Below are positions 28,381-45,792 of a stretch of 48,364 nucleotides of DNA, one piece after another (the stretch's first letter is position 1; every line of letters begins with the position of its first letter). The DNA is from a virus. The position numbers and the translations under genes are program-made. The stretch lies in the IMG/VR virus record IMGVR_UViG_3300042353_000511, positions 1-48,364 of that record; one strand, written 5' to 3'. The notes beneath the pieces were generated by a model, which was not told the DNA's origin, ran no database searches, and worked only from the letters and a program-made list of their open reading frames with translations.

Positions 28381-28418
28381 TGCCGGAGCCAGAGCCGATG
28401 CCGTGGGTGAATCCATGA
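28380..28418 (+). CDS. 12-codon linking frame ([12 protein letters not shown])
   Basis: The ATG at 28380 overlaps the LamG stop (TGATG), and the TGA at 28416-28418 overlaps the ATG at 28415 of the next gene (ATGA). It can carry ribosomes across the 34-base gap and so couple the two genes. Whether the peptide itself matters is unknown. Confidence 0.4.
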
Positions 28419-29374
28419 AACGCGCACTGATCACCGGCATCACCGGCCAGGACGGCAGCTACCTCGCCGAACTCCTGCTCGCCAAGGGATACGAGGTTCA
28501 CGGGATCATTCGTCGCTCAAGCACGTTCTCCACGGGCCGGATCGAGCATCTGTACGACCGCCTCCAACTCCATTACGGAGACGTGACCGATGGCTCGTCG
28601 CTCTGCCGGCTGGTGCGGACGATCCAACCGGACGAGGTCTACAACCTTGCCGCCCAGAGCCACGTCCGCGTGAGCTTCGACCAGCCCAGCTACACCGCCG
28701 CCGCCACCGGGCTTGGGACGCTGGCCCTGCTGGAGGCTGTGCGTGACGTCGCCCCGGCCGCCAGGGTCTATCAGGCGTCGTCGAGCGAGCAGTTCGGCAA
28801 TGAGCCGGCGCCGCAGTCGGAGGCGACGGCGTTTCGGCCCAGGAGCCCCTACGCCTGCGCGAAGGTGTTCGCTCACCACATCGCGGTCAACTACCGCGAG
28901 AGCTACGGCCTTCACGTTTCCTGCGGCATCCTCTTCAACCACGAAAGCCCCCGGAGGGGCGAGACGTTCGTGACCCGGAAGATCGCCCAGGCCGTCGCCA
29001 AGATCGCCGCCGGCCGGCAGGAAAAGCTCGCCCTCGGGAATCTCGACGCCCAGCGCGACTGGGGCTTCGCGGGCGACTACGTCGAGGCAATGTGGCTCAT
29101 GCTCCAGCAGGAGCGGCCCGACGACTACGTCATCGCCACCGGAGAGACGCACTCCGTCCGAGAGTTCCTCGACATCGCCTGCGAACGGGTGGGCCTCAAC
29201 CCTGCGGCGATCGTGACTCACGACCCGCGGTACGACCGGCCCGCCGAGGTCGACTGCCTCTTGGGGGACGCGAGCAAGGCCCGTCAAGCCCTCGGCTGGT
29301 CGCCCCGCGTCGGCTTCCGTGACCTCGTCCACATGATGGTCGATGACGAGGTGCGCCGGTGTTCGGCTTCCTGA
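28415..29374 (+). CDS. gmd: GDP-mannose 4,6-dehydratase
   Basis: A 319-residue extended short-chain dehydrogenase that converts GDP-D-mannose to GDP-4-keto-6-deoxymannose. NADP-binding [16 protein letters not shown] at the start, [30 protein letters not shown], the catalytic S-S-E in ASSSEQFG, and YACAK (YxxxK) are all present, as is [14 protein letters not shown]. The open frame reaches upstream, but the ATG at 28415 begins the family N-terminus. With the GDP-L-fucose synthase at 44842 the phage holds both steps to GDP-L-fucose. It directly follows the lectin-like fibre gene. Confidence 0.93.
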
Positions 29375-35995: not shown

Positions 35996-37784
35996 GTTTG
36001 ATCCAGACGTCATGTTCAAGCTCTGTGCGATGTACCTTTTCAAGGGCCTTCGCATCGTGAGGGTCCATGGGATTCTTCCAGACGGCACATGCACATGCGG
36101 GAAGGCAGGATGCACGCCGGGCAAGCACCCGATCGACCAAAAGTGGGCAACGAAGTATGCGAGGGACGAGGACGACGTCCTTCGGTGGCTGGAGTCGCCG
36201 CTGCCCTTCAACGTCGGCGTTGTTCTTGGTCCACAGGGCGGCGTCATTGACAGCGAAGACGACGACATTCGCGCTAAGGTGTTCCGAGAATCCATTGGAA
36301 TGTCTGACCTCGTCACACCGACATGGACGAGCGGGAAGTCGACCCACCAACTGACTCAGTGGGACGATCGACTTCAGGGCGACACCGGGGTCGTTTATCC
36401 CGGTGGCCTTGAGGTCAGGACGGGCGCCGGGAAGAAGATGACTCAGAGCGTCCTGCCCCCGTCGTGGCATTACAGTGGAGCCCAATACAGATGGAAGCCG
36501 GGTCTTTCTCCAGACGAAGTTCCTGTTGCCGAAACTCCGCGGGAATTGATTGCAGTTATCTACAACGGGGCTGGGGAAAAGAAAACTGTCGATCCGCCCA
36601 AGAACTACACCGAACCGCCAGCCACGAACTTTGTTTTCGGTGACGTCCGTCAGGGGGGCCGGCACAGGGCAATCCTTCGTTTTGTGTGGTGGAAGTGCAT
36701 CACTACGAGGAACCCCAATCACGCAAAACAGCGGAGCGTCCTGATTCGTGAGGTTACACGGTGGAACGAGGAGAACTGCAAGCCCCCGGAGGAGGAGAGT
36801 GCGGTGCTTAAAATCATCACCGACTGCCTTGACTCCTACCGCAAGAAGGAGATCGCCGGGTGGACGCCGAGCGATGTCGACGAAGAGGATGAGGCCATTG
36901 AGAGAGAAGCGGCCTCTATCGAGGAGGCGGTCAAAAAGAAGGAGTTGTCTGGATTCTCCGTCTCTGCTCGCCGTGGCTACGAGCTTCATGGTCTACAGAA
37001 GGTCACTCATGGCAAAGTCGAGACTTACGCCGAGGGCAACTGGTCGATTGAGATGATTCACTCCGATCCGCCGGAGGTGTGCCTCATCGTACCGATGTGG
37101 CGGGATCGGCCATGCCGCGGGCGGATCAACATGACGCTCGAAACATTCCGGTCCCCGAACAAAGTCGCTGCGCTTGTGTTTTCCGCAACTCGGGGAGTCC
37201 TCCTCGACGGAGACTCAAAGAAGTGGACGTCGATCTGGAAGGGCTACGACGCAAGCAGCAAGACTGGCGGGGAGTCGATCCCTGGGCTTATGGAGAGGCT
37301 GCTTGAGAAAAAAGAGAGCCAGGGGACCGACATCACGGTCGGCACCTCAAGCCTCCGGTATGCACAGCTTGCAGGATTCGTCCTTCAGGTTTTCAGGAGA
37401 GCCACCAAGCCCCGCGATGAAACCAAGCCGGAGCCCAACGAGTCTGGACGACCGTGCTGGGTGACCCCCGAAGAGCTTTGGTTCCAGTGGGGGAAGATAT
37501 GGGACGACATTGGCCGTTCGCACGATGTTGTCCCTGGAGAGCGGTCACGGGTCCGGTCACGGATGCTCGCCATGGTGCGAGGGGACGACGGGAAGGCCGT
37601 AACCGACTTCGTCCACCGCAGGCACTCGTTTGCCACCGGAAGGCTGGAGTTCGTGGTGTTCACAAAGCCGTGGCTCGACGCACTTGAGAGTCTGGCGGCC
37701 GGAGAAGAGACCATCGTCAGAGATACCACCCTCTCCTCCTCCGACGCAGAAGACCCGCCAGAGTCGGAGGAGCAGGCGGCGTGA
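35985..37784 (+). CDS. Prim-pol type primase/polymerase
   Basis: A 599-residue protein. The N-terminus has the bifunctional primase-polymerase pattern: GTCTCGKAGCTPGKHPIDQKW, then NVGVVLGPQGGVIDSEDDD with the metal-binding acidic residues, then LEVRTGAGKKMTQSVLPPS. The middle and C-terminal parts look like a primase C-terminal region, but I see no Walker A helicase motif, so unwinding would fall to the separate helicases. GGAGG precedes the ATG at 35985, which overlaps the HNH gene. Base composition is somewhat lower in GC than neighbours. Confidence 0.82.
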   Translation: MAFEFDPDVMFKLCAMYLFKGLRIVRVHGILPDGTCTCGKAGCTPGKHPIDQKWATKYARDEDDVLRWLESPLPFNVGVVLGPQGGVIDSEDDDIRAKVFRESIGMSDLVTPTWTSGKSTHQLTQWDDRLQGDTGVVYPGGLEVRTGAGKKMTQSVLPPSWHYSGAQYRWKPGLSPDEVPVAETPRELIAVIYNGAGEKKTVDPPKNYTEPPATNFVFGDVRQGGRHRAILRFVWWKCITTRNPNHAKQRSVLIREVTRWNEENCKPPEEESAVLKIITDCLDSYRKKEIAGWTPSDVDEEDEAIEREAASIEEAVKKKELSGFSVSARRGYELHGLQKVTHGKVETYAEGNWSIEMIHSDPPEVCLIVPMWRDRPCRGRINMTLETFRSPNKVAALVFSATRGVLLDGDSKKWTSIWKGYDASSKTGGESIPGLMERLLEKKESQGTDITVGTSSLRYAQLAGFVLQVFRRATKPRDETKPEPNESGRPCWVTPEELWFQWGKIWDDIGRSHDVVPGERSRVRSRMLAMVRGDDGKAVTDFVHRRHSFATGRLEFVVFTKPWLDALESLAAGEETIVRDTTLSSSDAEDPPESEEQAA

Positions 37785-39888: not shown

Positions 39889-40100
39889 GCTTCCAGTGGT
39901 CCATCACCCTTGGCGTAAGAGCCGAAACCGTTTCTTACCGCCCCCCGCCCGGTTTGGCGGATGCCCCAAGCCCATATCGCCGAGAGCGAGTCGTCGAAGT
40001 CAAGGTCGATGACACCGCCGCCTATGACGACTTGGATTGCCTTCGGGCGTTCGGCGAGTCCGTTCGGGAGGCAATCGAGCATCTGGAGAAGAGATCATGA
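39885..40100 (+). CDS. Small protein, unrecognised
   Basis: A 71-residue protein, ATGA-coupled at both ends. Middle part Pro-rich (SYRPPPGLADAPSPYRR), C-terminal part helical and acidic. No function seen. Confidence 0.55.
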   Translation: MSFQWSITLGVRAETVSYRPPPGLADAPSPYRRERVVEVKVDDTAAYDDLDCLRAFGESVREAIEHLEKRS

Positions 40101-40564
40101 CCGAAACCCTCTTCGACATCGCCCCCGACGAGCCGCAGCGCAAGCGATCCGCTCGCCCTGCGGCGACCGACGCGCCGCAGGTCGCGCCCGCCCCCCTGCC
40201 CCGCCGGCCGTCGGCGGCGATCAAGCCGATTGGCGAGATCGAGGGCGAGCCCTGCACCTGCAAGGCTTTCGGGGAGGTCTGCAACACGACCCTCTGGGAC
40301 ATTTTCTATGAGGACAAGGGCGACTGGCTGGTCGGCTGTTGGGCGTGCGGGGCCGTGAAGTGGACGCCGGTCGTTATGGGCCATCTGCCCGACCGCTCGA
40401 CGTTCATCGTCCGCGGCGGGCGTTTTGACGGCATGACCTTCGATCAGATCGCCCAGGAGCCGCGAGGGCTCGACACGATCAAACTCTATGCCGGAGATGC
40501 AAAGCGGCAGATGCTTTGTAACGAGGCGAAGAAGTGGCTTGACGCAAATCCAGGTCGCGGATAA
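40097..40564 (+). CDS. Protein with putative zinc site
   Basis: A 155-residue protein. The first 45 residues are basic and Pro/Ala-rich. Then CTCKAFGEVCNTT and VGCWACGAVKW suggest a zinc-binding fold with two cysteine pairs, and GGRFDGMTFDQIAQEPRGLD follows. The last part resembles short Lon- or exonuclease-associated regions seen in phages, but I cannot name it. Its end carries the promoter of the csrA gene. Confidence 0.6.
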   Translation: MTETLFDIAPDEPQRKRSARPAATDAPQVAPAPLPRRPSAAIKPIGEIEGEPCTCKAFGEVCNTTLWDIFYEDKGDWLVGCWACGAVKWTPVVMGHLPDRSTFIVRGGRFDGMTFDQIAQEPRGLDTIKLYAGDAKRQMLCNEAKKWLDANPGRG

Positions 40565-40567
40565 GCT
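40539..40567 (+). promoter_or_regulatory. Promoter of the csrA-led operon
   Basis: TTGACG (40539-40544), 17 bases, TAAGCT (40562-40567), continuing as TAAGCTACGCCGCACG, one of the best copies of the recurring motif. The CsrA-type gene starts 28 bases later. Confidence 0.65.
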
Positions 40568-40595
40568 ACGCCGCACGGCATTGGAGGCCGATCGA

Positions 40596-40769
40596 ATGTC
40601 AACGCTTGTGATTTCCCGAAGGATCGGCGAAGGCGTCAAGATCGGCGACGACATCTTCATTCGTCTCGCCAGAGCGAAGCGCGACGGCGCGTTTCGTCTC
40701 GTCATCGAGGCGCCCCGGTGCGTCAAGATTCTCCGCGAGGAGCTTGTCGGCACGGAGGCGAAGAAGTGA
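40596..40769 (+). CDS. csrA: CsrA-type RNA-binding translation regulator
   Basis: A 57-residue protein matching CsrA/RsmA end to end: TLVISRRIGEGVKIGDDIFI, then RLVIEAPRCVKILREEL. Residues known to contact GGA motifs in RNA are kept: the Leu and Arg-Arg of the first strand, the Arg in FRLVI, and the Arg in LREEL. It would bind GGA sites near ribosome binding sites as a dimer and block or stabilise mRNAs, host or phage. Its own ribosome site is GGAGG (40583-40587), so self-control is possible. Driven by its own promoter and coupled to a membrane protein gene by GTGA. Confidence 0.92.
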   Translation: MSTLVISRRIGEGVKIGDDIFIRLARAKRDGAFRLVIEAPRCVKILREELVGTEAKK

Positions 40770-40954
40770 TTCACCGCCACCGAGATGCCATCGCTGTCTG
40801 GGGGATGCTCGCCCTCTTCGGCTACATCCTCGTTGCCCAGTCGGTCTTTGCCCTCCGGCACCCGTGGGCCACCGACACCGAGCGATTCTTGTACTTCGGC
40901 CGAGCGATGGTGTTCGGCAAGGTCGATTACTCTGATGCGAGACCAAGGGAATGA
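40766..40954 (+). CDS. Small one-pass membrane protein
   Basis: A 62-residue protein with one membrane segment at about 9-30 (AIAVWGMLALFGYILVAQSV) and a short polar tail. GTG start at 40766, overlapping the csrA stop. No family recognised. Together with csrA it may alter the host cell during lysogeny, but this is only inferred from gene order. Confidence 0.62.
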   Translation: MIHRHRDAIAVWGMLALFGYILVAQSVFALRHPWATDTERFLYFGRAMVFGKVDYSDARPRE

Positions 40955-41229
40955 GTCTGCTTTGCTTCATGGACGAAGAACCAATCGCTACTACGCTCGA
41001 CACCGAGGTGAGAGATTTCCTGTCGAAGCTCCCCGCCGGCGGAAACCGCGTTGGGTGCAATTACATCTGGTTCGCCTTTGAGCATCACCGCGCCGAGCCC
41101 TGCTCCCTGGAGGAGTTTGAGGCTGCGGTGGCGAGAGTCGCCCCGACCTCGACGGTCTACGGACGCCTGTTCGTCGAGGGCGTCGATGCGGCGGAAGTAA
41201 GACGTGTTTACCTTGAGGTCTTCCGGTGA
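40951..41229 (+). CDS. Small protein, unrecognised
   Basis: A 92-residue protein: DTEVRDFLSKLPAGGNRVG, then IWFAFEHHRAEPCSLEEFEAAV. It has the look of a small regulatory or DNA-binding helical protein but no clear motif. ATGA-coupled with the membrane protein before it and GTGA-coupled with the Tat-signal protein after it. Confidence 0.55.
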   Translation: MSLLCFMDEEPIATTLDTEVRDFLSKLPAGGNRVGCNYIWFAFEHHRAEPCSLEEFEAAVARVAPTSTVYGRLFVEGVDAAEVRRVYLEVFR

Positions 41230-41732
41230 GCGAACGCCAATCCCGTCGATCATTCCTTGGCCTTCTCTCCGCTGTCTCGGCGGCCCTAGCATCCGGCGTG
41301 CGCTTGCCCGGCGCTGAAGGATCAAAGGCCGCCGAGACGGCGCCGGTACAGCCATGGTCGGACGACGAGGCGATGATGCTCGACGCCCCGCCGGTGGCGC
41401 CGCCCGACCGGACGCCTGCCGGCCTGCTCGCCATGCTGCGGGAGATGCTGCCCCAGTGCGTCGCGGTGGCGTGGGAGCAGAACATCATCGTAGGCGAGTT
41501 GCTTGAGACGATCGTGACGTACCGGCTCGACCCCGAGGCGGCCAAGAGCAGCCGGAATCCCCTGGGCCTCGACCTCGATCGCATCGAGAAGGGCTGGCCG
41601 TCGTCGGTGACGGTCCACGACACCGCGATGATGGATGGCATCCAGCCCCTCGGCGATTACCGCTCCGGCGGTTACCACCGTGAGTTTGCGATCCCTCGGC
41701 CGAACCGAGAACTCGTTATCACCTGGAGGTAG
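41226..41732 (+). CDS. Exported protein with twin-arginine signal (1)
   Basis: A 168-residue protein. SRRSFLGLLSAVSAALASGV at residues 6-25 is a textbook Tat signal: SRRxFL followed by a hydrophobic stretch. The exact cleavage site is not clear. The mature part starts acidic and carries REMLPQCVAVAWEQNIIVGELLETI and a final HREFAIPRPNRELVITWR. No family is recognised. GTG start. It would be exported folded through the Tat pathway, for which this same gene run also codes a TatA subunit. Confidence 0.7.
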   Translation: MSERQSRRSFLGLLSAVSAALASGVRLPGAEGSKAAETAPVQPWSDDEAMMLDAPPVAPPDRTPAGLLAMLREMLPQCVAVAWEQNIIVGELLETIVTYRLDPEAAKSSRNPLGLDLDRIEKGWPSSVTVHDTAMMDGIQPLGDYRSGGYHREFAIPRPNRELVITWR

Positions 41733-41734
41733 GG

Positions 41735-41965
41735 ATGAGCAGCAATCCGCCAGAAGTAATCGTGACCCGCGAGATATTTGACGCCCTAAGTTCAGGCCGC
41801 AGCGACTGGCACCACACAGTCACGCCGGGGGACGCGATGGTCGACGTCATCTACTACGAGAACGACGTCCGCAAGAGCTACATCAGCATCAGCATCGACG
41901 CCGCCGAGGCGTTTGCGGCTGCGATCGTGGCGTGTGCGAACGAGATGAGGGCCGCGGGCGCATGA
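41735..41965 (+). CDS. Small protein between two exported proteins
   Basis: A 76-residue protein: VIYYENDVRKSYISISIDAAEAFAAAIVACANEMRAAG. No signal peptide, no membrane segment, no known family. It starts 2 bases after the previous stop and ends in an ATGA overlap with the next Tat-signal protein, so it is part of the same transcript. Confidence 0.55.
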   Translation: MSSNPPEVIVTREIFDALSSGRSDWHHTVTPGDAMVDVIYYENDVRKSYISISIDAAEAFAAAIVACANEMRAAGA

Positions 41966-42555
41966 CCATCTCCCGTCGATCATTCTTCACGGCCGTCGCC
42001 GGGGCTATCGCGGGCGCCGTGGCGTCGAAGGCCCTGGTCGTCGAGCCAGCGTCGCCGGTGATGGCCGCACCGCCGATGGACCGCAAGGCGTCGACGTTCG
42101 CTGAGTTCTGCCGCCAGTATCTTCCCGAGCAGGAGATTGCGCCTTGGCAAGAGGACATTCTGCCGAAGTTTCAAGCCGCAAGGCTCACCGCAAAAGTCAA
42201 GATTCCGGCGTGCCTCCTTGAAGACTCGATGATCGACTTCCGAGATCGGCTTTCTGCGGAGTTTGGACGCGACTTGGCCGAGCGGTTCGACCGCGAGTGC
42301 TGGGCGACATTCGCCGTGCCCGAGAGTCACACGAAGCTGAACATCGAGTCGCTCAAGGCGGTGATGGAATCGCTGCCGAAGTACAGCCGCGGATTCATCG
42401 CGATCAATGACGTTCGGGCATTTGAGGGGCTCAATCCAATCCCCGTGACGACGCTCCCGCCCGGCTGGGAGATGCGGCAATACGCCCCGTACCAAGCCGC
42501 CGACGGCCAGCCGGCTGTCGACCCACAAGAGTGGCTCTCGCTCGCTCGCGGTTGA
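41962..42555 (+). CDS. Exported protein with twin-arginine signal (2)
   Basis: A 197-residue protein. ISRRSFFTAVAGAIAGAVAS at residues 3-22 is a Tat signal, with a possible cleavage after PVMA near residue 35. The mature part has FAEFCRQYLPEQEIAPWQEDI, then ERFDRECWATFAVPESH, then INDVRAFEGLNPIPVT. No family recognised with confidence. Separated from the TatA gene only by a promoter. Two cysteines remain in the mature domain. Confidence 0.7.
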   Translation: MTISRRSFFTAVAGAIAGAVASKALVVEPASPVMAAPPMDRKASTFAEFCRQYLPEQEIAPWQEDILPKFQAARLTAKVKIPACLLEDSMIDFRDRLSAEFGRDLAERFDRECWATFAVPESHTKLNIESLKAVMESLPKYSRGFIAINDVRAFEGLNPIPVTTLPPGWEMRQYAPYQAADGQPAVDPQEWLSLARG

Positions 42556-42568
42556 TTCGACTTCTCGC

Positions 42569-42597
42569 TTGACGACCAAAAGACACCCCGCTAGACT
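42569..42597 (+). promoter_or_regulatory. Promoter of the tatA gene
   Basis: TTGACG (42569-42574), exactly 17 bases, TAGACT (42592-42597). The best sigma-70-like promoter in the window. It starts the message about 35 bases before the TatA ATG. Confidence 0.75.
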
Positions 42598-42639
42598 CCA
42601 CGCCACGTCATTGTTCGATCCCCCATGAAGGAGGTTCCC

Positions 42640-42843
42640 ATGCTCTTCGCGTTTTTCGGTGTCGGTACAATCGAAATGGTGATCATCGGTGCCGTGTCGG
42701 TGATGCTCTTCGGCGGTCGCTTGCCGAAGGTCGCTCGATCCATCGGCCAGTCGATCGTCGAGTTCAAGCGCGGTTTCTTGGAGGTCGAGGCCGAGTGCGC
42801 CGAGATCAACAAGGTCATCGAGTCGAAGGAGGTGCGGGCATGA
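42640..42843 (+). CDS. tatA: TatA/E-type twin-arginine translocase subunit
   Basis: A 67-residue membrane protein. Order of parts matches TatA: short N-terminus, one membrane helix at 8-24 (VGTIEMVIIGAVSVMLF), the FG hinge at 24-25, then the amphipathic helix LPKVARSIGQSIVEFKRG at 28-45 with its conserved LP, G and FK positions, then an acidic tail. TatA forms the pore-like complex that moves folded proteins across the membrane. It is short, but complete. AAGGAGG lies 5 bases before ATG 42640. Its own strong promoter precedes it, and genes for three Tat-signal proteins stand nearby at 41226, 41962 and 44408. Confidence 0.88.
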   Translation: MLFAFFGVGTIEMVIIGAVSVMLFGGRLPKVARSIGQSIVEFKRGFLEVEAECAEINKVIESKEVRA

Positions 42844-43070
42844 TCATCGCCCCTCCTCCCCCCCCGCCGGTGCAGCCGCCAGCCATCGTGCAGACGGTCG
42901 ACGCTGACGGCCAGTCTCAGCAGCAGGGCGCCGGCTCGCCGCCGCCGGCCGCGAAGAAGAAGTCCAAGCAGCGGTCTCGTCGACTGACTGCGGAGCAGAA
43001 GAAGTCGAACCGCAAGAAGCGTGCGTACAACGCCCGGCGAGCAGCCCGGCAAAACAACGGGGGGAAGTGA
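42840..43070 (+). CDS. Proline-rich then basic small protein
   Basis: A 76-residue protein. A run of prolines near the start, Gln-rich middle, and a strongly basic C-terminus (KKKSKQRSRRLTAEQKKSNRKK). Looks disordered and nucleic-acid binding. ATGA-coupled to tatA and to the next gene. No family recognised. Confidence 0.58.
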   Translation: MIIAPPPPPPVQPPAIVQTVDADGQSQQQGAGSPPPAAKKKSKQRSRRLTAEQKKSNRKKRAYNARRAARQNNGGK

Positions 43071-44053
43071 TGAGCGAAGCAGACAACGGCAACGAACTCA
43101 ATCAGGTCCAGGGTGTGCTGACCGAGTTCTCTCGGGTCGAGGCTGGGCTGGCGGCGCTCCGCGAGAAGCACGCCAACACGGTATACGAGGTGTCGACGAC
43201 CGTCGGGCTCGACGCGGCGAAGGCCGCCAGGGCAGAGATTCGCGAGCCTCGGTACGCCGTCGAGAACGTCCGCAAGGCCGCAAAGGCCCCGCTGGTCGCT
43301 CTCGGCAAGCGGATCGACGCCGAGGCGGCGCGGATCACGACTGAGATCATGGCGATCGAGGCTCCGATCGACGACCAAATCAAGGCCGAAGAGGCCCGTC
43401 GGGTGGCCGACCGTGAGGCCAAGAAGGCCGCGGAAGTCGAGCGAGTCCGGCAGGAAGCTGCTGCCAAGCTCAAGGAAGAGGAGGATCGTCTGGCCGCCGA
43501 GCGAGCCGCTCTGAAAGTCGAGCAGGACCGTCTCGCTGCGGAGCGTGCGAAGGCCGAGTCCGAGGCCGCTGCTGAACGGGCGGCGCTTCGTGCCGAGCAG
43601 GCGAAGGTCGCTGCCCAACGCGCAGCCATCGAGGCGGAAGCAGCCGCGGCGAAGAAGAAAGCCGACGCCGAGGCTGCTGCCCAACGCGCAGCCATTGAGG
43701 CGGAAGCTGCCGCGGCGAAGAAGAAAGCGGACGCCGAGGCTGCGGCCCAGCGCGCCGCCATTGAGGCGGAGGCCGCAGCCGCCAGGAAAAAGGCCGATGC
43801 CGAGCGTGAAGCTCTTCGCGTCGAGCAGGAAAAGGCCGCCGCTCTTGAGGCGGCCCGCATCAAGGCCGAGGAGGACGAGCGGAAGGCCGAGGCGGAAGCC
43901 CAGGCCCGAGAGTTCGCCGAGGGCCTCCCGCCTTTCGATGAGGTCGTCGGACTGATCGAGGAGGCGTTCGGTGTCGAGCGGGACACGGCGATTGCGATGA
44001 TTCTGCACTACGCCGAGACGTACAAGCTGAGTGCGGAGACGGTGGCCGTATAG
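43070..44053 (+). CDS. Long coiled-coil protein with Ala/Lys/Glu repeats
   Basis: A 327-residue protein. An N-terminal domain of 110 residues leads into a long coiled coil (about 110-300) with tandem 22-residue units, and ends with FAEGLPPFDEVVGLIEEAF. TolA-like in composition but lacking a membrane anchor. Phage proteins of this shape are often near recombination or SSB-type genes. Function unknown. Coupled by ATGA to the basic small protein. Its stop is followed by the tRNA-like element. Confidence 0.7.
   Translation: MSEADNGNELNQVQGVLTEFSRVEAGLAALREKHANTVYEVSTTVGLDAAKAARAEIREPRYAVENVRKAAKAPLVALGKRIDAEAARITTEIMAIEAPIDDQIKAEEARRVADREAKKAAEVERVRQEAAAKLKEEEDRLAAERAALKVEQDRLAAERAKAESEAAAERAALRAEQAKVAAQRAAIEAEAAAAKKKADAEAAAQRAAIEAEAAAAKKKADAEAAAQRAAIEAEAAAARKKADAEREALRVEQEKAAALEAARIKAEEDERKAEAEAQAREFAEGLPPFDEVVGLIEEAFGVERDTAIAMILHYAETYKLSAETVAV
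43610..43807 (+). repeat. Three tandem 66-bp repeats in the coiled-coil gene
   Basis: Units of 22 codons begin at 43610, 43676 and 43742, coding AAQRAAIEAEAAAA(K/R)KKADAE with a final A (R in the last copy). The DNA copies are nearly identical, a sign of recent slippage. Confidence 0.85.
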
Positions 44054-44071
44054 CCACCCCGCACGCCATCA

Positions 44072-44161
44072 GGCCCCGTAGTTTGCATCCGGCGGACGTC
44101 ACCGGAGACGGGAAAACGCGGCAACCGCGCCGTAACGCGAGTTCGACCCTCGCCGGGGCCA
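44072..44161 (+). ncRNA. tRNA-like element with degenerate anticodon arm
   Basis: The 90-base segment folds as a cloverleaf. Acceptor GGCCCCG/CGGGGCC (7 bp, with A as discriminator at 44161), T8-A9, D-stem GTTT/AAAC, and a T-arm GCGAG-TTCGACC-CTCGC with the invariant TTC-R-A. The D-loop is 29 bases, three times normal, and contains its own TCCGG/CCGGA hairpin. The anticodon arm is reduced to CGGC/GCCG with a 6-base loop AACCGC lacking U33. No 3' CCA is encoded. It therefore cannot be read as a standard decoding tRNA. It may be a decayed tRNA, a decoy or an RNA-processing signal. The ATG of the next gene is 3 bases downstream. A motif copy (TATAGCCACCCCGC at 44049) is upstream. Confidence 0.6.
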
Positions 44162-44163
44162 TT

Positions 44164-44418
44164 ATGAATCCGATCACCAAGCACGTCAAAGCCAACGCCC
44201 GTCTGCGTCGAAAGATCGACCGGCTTGAGGACCGCATCGCGACCATCAAGTCGACCACGGCCAATCTCGTCACGCTCGCCGATTTCAACGGCTTTGGGGA
44301 TCACCCGATCGCCGTGCGGGCGGCGGCAGAGATCGGCTGGGTGCGGATGACGCCGGAGCAGCGGGATCAACTGGCCGAGCAACTCAAGGCCCTCCACGGA
44401 GAGACCCATGCGTCGTAG
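44164..44418 (+). CDS. Small helical protein, unrecognised
   Basis: An 84-residue basic protein beginning HVKANARLRRKIDRLEDRIATIK, a short coiled coil. ATG 44164 is three bases past the tRNA-like element, leaving only GC-rich sequence as a weak ribosome site, which is unusual. Overlaps the next gene by 11 bases. No known family. Confidence 0.52.
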   Translation: MNPITKHVKANARLRRKIDRLEDRIATIKSTTANLVTLADFNGFGDHPIAVRAAAEIGWVRMTPEQRDQLAEQLKALHGETHAS

Positions 44419-44827
44419 AGACTGGCTGAAATCCCTCGCCGTTCTGGCCGTTGTCCCGATGATCGGCGTCCGCAAGGCCGTCGCGTCGTCAGAATCCGTG
44501 CCGGAGACCCTGCCTGCTGTTGCGCCGCCGACGCCGCCGGCAGAAATGGTTACGGGTCCGTGTCGCCAGTGTCGCTTTGCCTCGATGCTTGGCGGGCCGT
44601 TTCACGGCGAGTCCGCGTGGGTCGGCGGCCCGCCAGTCTTCACGCTGTCGTCGAACTTCGTCATTCACTACTACAGGCTTTTCACTCTTGTTTCGACTAG
44701 TGGAGAGCCTCGGGAGGCGTGGGTCCACTGCGGAGAAGACGGTGACGGCCCGACGCCAGCAGCGAGGCACGAACTCAACCGCTGGGCGGCTTGGGCTGGG
44801 TCTGGCTCCTTGATGATTGCTCACTAA
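44408..44827 (+). CDS. Exported protein with twin-arginine signal (3)
   Basis: A 139-residue protein. MRRRDWLKSLAVLAVVPMIG is a Tat signal of the RRxWLK kind, with a probable cleavage after AVA near residue 26. The mature part is small, with a CRQCRF pair that may bind metal and FHGESAWVGGPPVFTLSSN. Not recognised. Third Tat-signal protein within 3.6 kb, on the far side of the tatA gene. Confidence 0.7.
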   Translation: MRRRDWLKSLAVLAVVPMIGVRKAVASSESVPETLPAVAPPTPPAEMVTGPCRQCRFASMLGGPFHGESAWVGGPPVFTLSSNFVIHYYRLFTLVSTSGEPREAWVHCGEDGDGPTPAARHELNRWAAWAGSGSLMIAH

Positions 44828-44841
44828 ACCAGGAGCCTCAC

Positions 44842-45792
44842 ATGACCAGCCTCAAGGACAAGCGAATCCTCGTCACGGGTGGCACGGGTTTCCTCGGGCA
44901 GGCGGTCGTCAGGCGTCTGCGGGCCGTGGCGCCGCTGGCGGATGTGGCGGCGGCGAGCAGGCGAGACTGCAACTTCACCGACGCCTACCAGACCGCCCGG
45001 TTCTTCCACCGCAACCCCGCCGACGTCATCATCCACCTCGCCGCGAACGTCGGCGGCATCGGTAAGAACCAAGCCGAGCCGGCGTGGATCATGCACGACA
45101 ACCTCGCGATGGGCGTGAACGTCGTGAATGCGGCCTGCGAGCAGGGGGCCAAGCTCGTCTACGTCGGCACGACCTGCTCCTACCCCCGCGACCTGCCGAT
45201 GCCGTATACCGAAACGGGTCTGTGGGACGGCTACCCCGAGGCGACGAATGCCCCCTACGGCATCGCCAAGAAGGCCATCGGGGAGTTCGTCATCGCCTGT
45301 CACCGCCAGCATGGCCTCAAGGCCGCGTACCTCCTGCCGGCGAATCTCTACGGCCCAGGCGACAACTTCGACCCGGCGACCAGCCACGTCATCCCGGCGA
45401 TGATTCGACGGTTCGTCGAGGCGAAGGAGCGAGGGGAGCCGGAGGTGACTTGCTGGGGGACCGGCAATGCAAGCCGCGAGTTCCTGTACGTCGATGACGC
45501 AGCCGACGCGATCGTAAGAGCGGCCGAGGTCGTCGACACGCCGGAGCCGATCAATTTGGCTGGGGCGGCGACGATGTCGATCCGCCTGCTGGCGAACCTC
45601 ATTGCCAGAATCGTTGGGTACACGGGCTCTATTAAGTGGGACGCCTCCAAACCCGACGGCCAACCGGCCAGGATGCTCGACGGGGCAAGGGCGTGGGAAC
45701 GACTCAACTGGGGGCCGAAGACCGCGATTCAGGATGGTCTTGAATCGACGATTAGGTGGTATTCTGAATATAGGAGTCGACGCAATGGCTAA
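44842..45792 (+). CDS. fcl: GDP-L-fucose synthase
   Basis: A 316-residue epimerase/reductase that finishes GDP-L-fucose from the product of GDP-mannose dehydratase. RILVTGGTGFLGQAVV binds NADPH, then VIIHLAANVGGI, the Ser and Tyr-Lys pair in GTTCSYPRD and YGIAKKAIGEF, and SREFLYVDDAADAI. All standard parts are present. Lies 15 kb from the dehydratase gene, among unrelated small genes, so the two were probably gained or kept separately. AGGAG before the ATG. Confidence 0.92.
   Translation: MTSLKDKRILVTGGTGFLGQAVVRRLRAVAPLADVAAASRRDCNFTDAYQTARFFHRNPADVIIHLAANVGGIGKNQAEPAWIMHDNLAMGVNVVNAACEQGAKLVYVGTTCSYPRDLPMPYTETGLWDGYPEATNAPYGIAKKAIGEFVIACHRQHGLKAAYLLPANLYGPGDNFDPATSHVIPAMIRRFVEAKERGEPEVTCWGTGNASREFLYVDDAADAIVRAAEVVDTPEPINLAGAATMSIRLLANLIARIVGYTGSIKWDASKPDGQPARMLDGARAWERLNWGPKTAIQDGLESTIRWYSEYRSRRNG

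Follow-up and report, generated by a model that had tools for sequence, protein, structure and literature searches.

A phage tatA gene in the company of twin-arginine signal genes: a candidate phage-borne Tat export module

A phage contig recorded in IMG/VR, here called the window and taken as the whole stretch of 48,364 bases that was analysed, carries a gene for TatA next to genes for small proteins with twin-arginine (RR) signals, and the two kinds of gene are found together throughout its tatA-bearing relatives. The reading that we consider probable, though well short of certain, is that they form a phage-borne Tat export module, in which TatA joins the host translocon and retunes or raises the export of RR-bearing phage proteins. 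The phage would supply a TatA of Planctomycetota type to a TatC-containing translocon of the host, host TatC being the presumed partner because TatC was not found in the phages, and this TatA would raise or retune Tat export for the phage cargo. The small RR-signal proteins would cross the cytoplasmic membrane in a folded state, during infection or lysogeny, and would then act outside the cytoplasm on a changing partner, e.g., an envelope component or competing phages, which would give them a role at the envelope or in superinfection exclusion.

The phage TatA and its probable host

The tatA gene (42640..42843, plus strand) encodes a protein of 67 amino acids that begins MLFAFFGVGTIEMVIIGAVSVMLFGGRLPKVARSIGQSIVEFKRGF. 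The preliminary description of this DNA had proposed a phage TatA with a membrane helix, an FG hinge and an amphipathic helix, and a profile search bears this out: the protein passes the Pfam model PF02416 (TatA_B_E; 35.6 bits, cut-off 21). Its best match in NCBIfam is TIGR01411 (tatAE), where it stays below the cut-off (39.2 bits against 53.9), and the TatB model gives 22.8 bits. The membrane helix contains Glu12, the hinge is formed by F24 and G25, and the amphipathic helix carries F42 and K43. Across nine aligned phage copies E12, F24, G25, L28, P29, G36, F42 and K43 are kept, such that the features by which membership in the family was judged (a polar residue in the membrane helix, the FG hinge and the FK motif) are all invariant. 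The FK pair corresponds to F39/K40 of E. coli TatA, which is reported to be highly conserved and important for translocation (PMC13186574). While the aligned copies are 65-99% identical to that of the window, the copy in the record G009 reaches 46%. Phage tatA is under purifying selection, with dN/dS values of 0.04-0.24 among the phage copies once the near-identical pair of the window lineage (G000) and its closest relative (G001) is set aside. On this evidence, 42640-42843 encodes a genuine TatA.

An alternative in-frame start exists at 42625 (MKEVPMLF), but the start at 42640 is favoured because a ribosome binding site (AAGGAGG, read from the sequence) lies at about 42628..42634 on the plus strand. 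TatC (PF00902) is absent from 13 tatA-positive records, some of which are fragments, and for this reason we class the protein of the window as a TatA and do not speak of a complete Tat system.

With respect to the host, all phage copies except that of G009 form one clade (100/100) among Planctomycetota sequences in a TatA tree built on 69 columns, the deeper forks of which are weak. This ancestry points to Planctomycetota as the probable hosts of the tatA-positive phages. In 23 of 24 loci the cellular copies nearest to the phage TatA belong to Planctomycetota, and 307 of 392 Planctomycetota genomes contain a match to it. A capsid search of 392 Planctomycetota genomes found no close provirus for host assignment; the best results were 27-34% matches in four genomes only.

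The gene set of the window comprises terminase, portal, capsid, tape measure, integrase and helicase, the portal, tape measure and helicase being named by sequence and context. Furthermore, the window contains, at 28412-29374 and 44842-45792, a GDP-mannose 4,6-dehydratase (PF16363, 454.8 bits) and a GDP-fucose synthase-like protein of the epimerase family (PF01370, 187.6 bits), which may allow the phage to produce an activated deoxysugar for glycans of the surface. Together with the integrase, these GDP-fucose genes would fit a phage that alters the host surface during lysogeny. A lipid desaturase domain protein (PF10520, 136.3 bits) is encoded in G001 (L091:1029-1550) and has a clear relative in G004 (36849-37373); both phages are tatA-positive, and a change of host membrane lipids is possible. 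The record opens (1-300) with short repeated copies of a GGCCGGCTGGCGGTCTCNGTCTCCAGGTGTGCC-like unit, which may represent a genuine array or the edge of the assembly.

Twin-arginine signal genes around tatA

Three plus-strand genes of the window encode proteins with N-termini of the twin-arginine type. The first (41226..41732; SRRSFLG, 168 amino acids) belongs to a family that we call A, and the second (41962..42555; SRRSFFT, 197 amino acids), which lies directly upstream of tatA and has a variable mature part, to family C; the third is found at 44408..44827 (RRRDWLK, 139 amino acids). All three had been proposed as Tat-signal proteins, and as far as the N-termini are concerned the proposal stands. 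The curated Tat-signal model TIGR01409, however, is passed by the protein at 41226 alone (19.5 bits, cut-off 16.7); it has no match at E 0.1 to those at 41962 and 44408, which satisfy only the rule of an RR followed by a hydrophobic stretch, a rule of our own making that also underlies the RR counts given below. The gene at 44408 has a weak coding score (5.2), yet both its start and its signal are retained in G001. No known Tat cargo matches the mature parts of the RR proteins.

A csrA-like regulator gene (40596..40769, plus strand; PF02599, 49 bits, cut-off 27) serves as a conserved marker on the upstream side of the tatA module; almost every relative has it beside the tatA region. Directly at the other side, overlapping the end of tatA, a 76-amino-acid proline-rich basic protein is encoded (42840..43070, plus strand), which is kept in G001 and G002 by gene order. 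It is followed at 43070-44053 by a gene for a 327-amino-acid protein in which coiled-coil units of AAAQRAAIEAEAAAAKKKADAEA recur; the N-terminal part of this protein gives a match to phrog_17928, and G001 has an unrelated gene at this position. A scan with the protein encoded at 40097 matched G001 only.

The proposal that tatA stands under its own strong promoter would hold, at best, for a narrower set of phages. A putative sigma-70-like promoter (TTGACG-17-TAGACT, 9/12 consensus match) lies upstream of tatA at 42569..42597 on the plus strand. It is the sole plus-strand match of this kind within 40000-45000, the number expected by chance in 5 kb being 0.4 for both strands combined, and its sequence is kept in G001. 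However, an RR gene abuts or overlaps tatA in G003, G004, G007 and G008, so that an own tatA promoter is no general feature and the putative match is confined to the closest pair.

Scans of viral contigs yielded nine further TatA-encoding records; a tenth came with the aligned copies, and two more were found via the helicase gene. Eleven of these belong to the tatA clade of the window and one, G009, to a separate clade. A further candidate, L011, was ruled out as a TatA by the Pfam model. Every tatA-positive record has an RR-signal gene. In order to compare phages with and without tatA, the helicase gene was taken as the anchor and 6 kb or more of sequence downstream of it was required, the tatA-positive set including records found via tatA itself. 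RR-signal genes were present in 10/10 tatA-positive lineages as compared to 6/37 tatA-negative loci (p = 1.5e-6), families B or C, whose genes immediately precede tatA, in nine of ten versus none of 37 (p = 7e-9), and matches to the curated TIGR01409 on whole records in 8/12 versus 4/37 (p = 4e-4), though all these p-values overstate independence, since the phages share ancestry and the module is mobile.

The signals are also enriched within genomes: 22 of the 597 genes in eight tatA-positive phages satisfy the RR rule, where 200 shuffles of the N-termini gave an expectation of 1.8 and a maximum of 7. At least two of these genes probably lack a true signal: they encode proteins of the MSEPKIRRKFK... 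type, with KFK after the RR, which were removed from the family lists and kept in the raw count of 22. The background in tatA-negative relatives is 3 of 460 genes. Among 18 neighbours of tatA, the probability of finding three or more RR genes is about 2e-4, and the adjoining genes represent three unrelated protein families, namely B, C and the protein of G009. G009 (L010), a viral record without relation to the others, is AT-rich (37.7% GC); its region C1:23771-24469 holds a tatA of its own and, directly after it, an RR-signal gene (MINRRNFFG), so that the arrangement seems to have been captured here separately.

Thus, the expectation that relatives keep tatA and signal genes together was borne out, both by their co-occurrence and by their adjacency in several records. 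A relative with tatA and no Tat-signal gene, which would have counted against it, was looked for, and no such record was found among those with tatA; G005 and G006 lack an RR gene as direct neighbour of tatA, and in both a family A gene is found at a distance of about 4.5 kb. Family A also occurs in six tatA-negative phages, and therefore this cargo does not strictly depend on the phage TatA and presumably can be served by host TatA alone. The phage TatA is thus better seen as an enhancer than as a requirement.

These data bear on the question whether TatA may act by itself. TatA has been reported to weaken membranes (PMC13186574), and the phage protein is short and comes without TatC, such that it could be a holin-like membrane weakener that depolarises or permeabilises the membrane, with the RR genes as unrelated neighbours. 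We regard this as unlikely, although it is the alternative to which we give most weight: tatA and RR genes strongly co-occur, the FK motif required for translocation (PMC13186574) is invariant, and tatA sits in the csrA region beside RR genes rather than beside a recognised lysis gene. No lysis gene was identified among the few G001 candidates scanned, so that this last argument weakens the holin-like explanation by the position of tatA only.

Constant signals, changing cargo and a mobile module

The RR signal is found in 18/18 listed members of family A and in all eight of family B, the member lists including some copies of the same record. In both families the signal is kept at low overall identity, and an unsignalled version of either was not found among the genes searched. 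Family C occurs only in tatA-positive phages, and a search of viral contigs yielded no further members.

The turnover of the cargo is most apparent between G000 and G001, where most genes are 90-100% identical and tatA is 99% identical. The protein at 41962 is only 25% identical to its G001 allele, with the start of the signal preserved, and that at 44408 is 35% identical to its counterpart, again with a preserved signal start and a different mature part. Other genes diverge between the two phages as well, notably the tape measure (21%); the cargo of the window lineage is thus variable, though it is not the sole variable gene. Turnover of the cargo with constant signals and a constant TatA is as expected for proteins that act outside the cytoplasm on a changing partner.

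A different possibility is that the phage TatA, as a poisoned or competing subunit, jams the Tat export of the host, e.g., to block the display of host proteins or the entry of other phages, while the RR proteins serve as decoys that saturate TatC. TatA variants can indeed be dominant negative (PMC13186574), and the cargoes are small and numerous. We nevertheless find jamming improbable, and rank it behind the holin-like explanation, because all tested essential positions of TatA are intact, and because RR signals conserved at low identity in front of distinct mature domains would be needless for decoys.

The mature part of the family C protein contains an unexpected element. Residues 70-115 of the window member (42169..42306, plus strand) are homologous to the HK97-type major capsid protein (capsid profile 11.3 bits, single-test E 6e-6), and when all genes of the loci were searched with a profile of the family C mature part, major capsid proteins were the only matches (best 2e-6). 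The G001 member passes PF05065 (30.0 bits, cut-off 24.2) with a match to positions 59-118 of 280 only, which falls short of the full capsid domain; family C cargo therefore contains a capsid-like segment without being a capsid protein. Portal-like pieces are suggestive only, the segment in question scoring 21.1 bits with the Pfam portal model (cut-off 39.1), and a terminase-like segment in 41962 that had been suspected by eye gave a negative bit score. The fold prediction for family C is unusable (pLDDT 35). Family A is predicted with moderate confidence (pLDDT 63) as a small alpha/beta domain, for which BFVD and PDB hold no significant match.

It could be speculated that the module is a weapon of phage against phage, in which Tat-signal proteins partly built from structural fragments (capsid, perhaps portal) bind the assembly proteins of competitors or imitate these at the envelope, being exported via a TatA-boosted translocon and diversified by rapid exchange. 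Of all the readings considered here this one seems to us the least likely.

The tatA module is recurrent among the relatives, and the helicase tree requires seven gains or losses of tatA. Mobility is best seen in G007 and G036, which have near-identical helicases and differ by a block replacement of the whole stretch from csrA to the MSKKKP gene, the version in G007 holding family B and tatA. In G036 (L238:12343-13319), queuosine precursor enzyme-like genes (QueD/QueE-like by eye) stand in their place.

This patchy distribution and the location of tatA where other genes swap in would also be compatible with hitch-hiking, i.e., with tatA and RR genes being captured host genes in a variable region that are linked by shared transfer and have no joint function. 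Against this stand the purifying selection on tatA, the association with RR genes (p = 1.5e-6 or lower), the three unrelated RR families next to tatA, and signals that are invariant at low overall identity; furthermore, no decay of tatA or of the signals was seen in the relatives. We therefore give hitch-hiking little credence, somewhat less than we give to jamming, and favour a joint function of tatA and the RR genes in export.

Relation to known systems

TatA is an old protein family, and host genes in phages are a known phenomenon. What is unusual, judging from the gene content, is the combination of a translocase subunit with its presumed cargo, and it suggests that phages may boost or redirect protein export of the host. 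The window TatA has no match in PHROGs, and a search of 50,697 GenBank phage records with it or with a generic TatA consensus gave nothing significant, one match being at chance level. In the open-access literature, the scope of our search, no report of a phage-borne TatA or other Tat subunit was found. If the proposed export module exists, phages can take over the export of folded proteins and thereby place variable proteins outside the cytoplasm. It would also be a tractable system, as it consists of one 67-residue protein with known essential residues, has defined cargoes, and offers a natural pair of phages of which only one has the module.

Phages also have genes for changing the envelope or for keeping out superinfecting phages, and these encode small proteins that are placed in or across the membrane. 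To our knowledge, these are not Tat-dependent and do not come with a translocase subunit of the phage.

The phage protein resembles the bacterial TatA/TatE proteins (PF02416, Planctomycetota type) in its membrane helix, conserved Glu, FG hinge and amphipathic helix with FK. It differs from them in being phage-encoded, with about 60-67 amino acids, unaccompanied by tatC or tatB, below the cut-off of TIGR01411, and part of a csrA-linked module with RR genes. Likewise, the candidate cargoes share with the Tat substrates described by TIGR01409 the RR motif, an uncharged hydrophobic stretch and a basic residue before the mature part, whereas their mature parts find no match among known Tat cargoes and, in the case of 41962, include a segment derived from a capsid protein.
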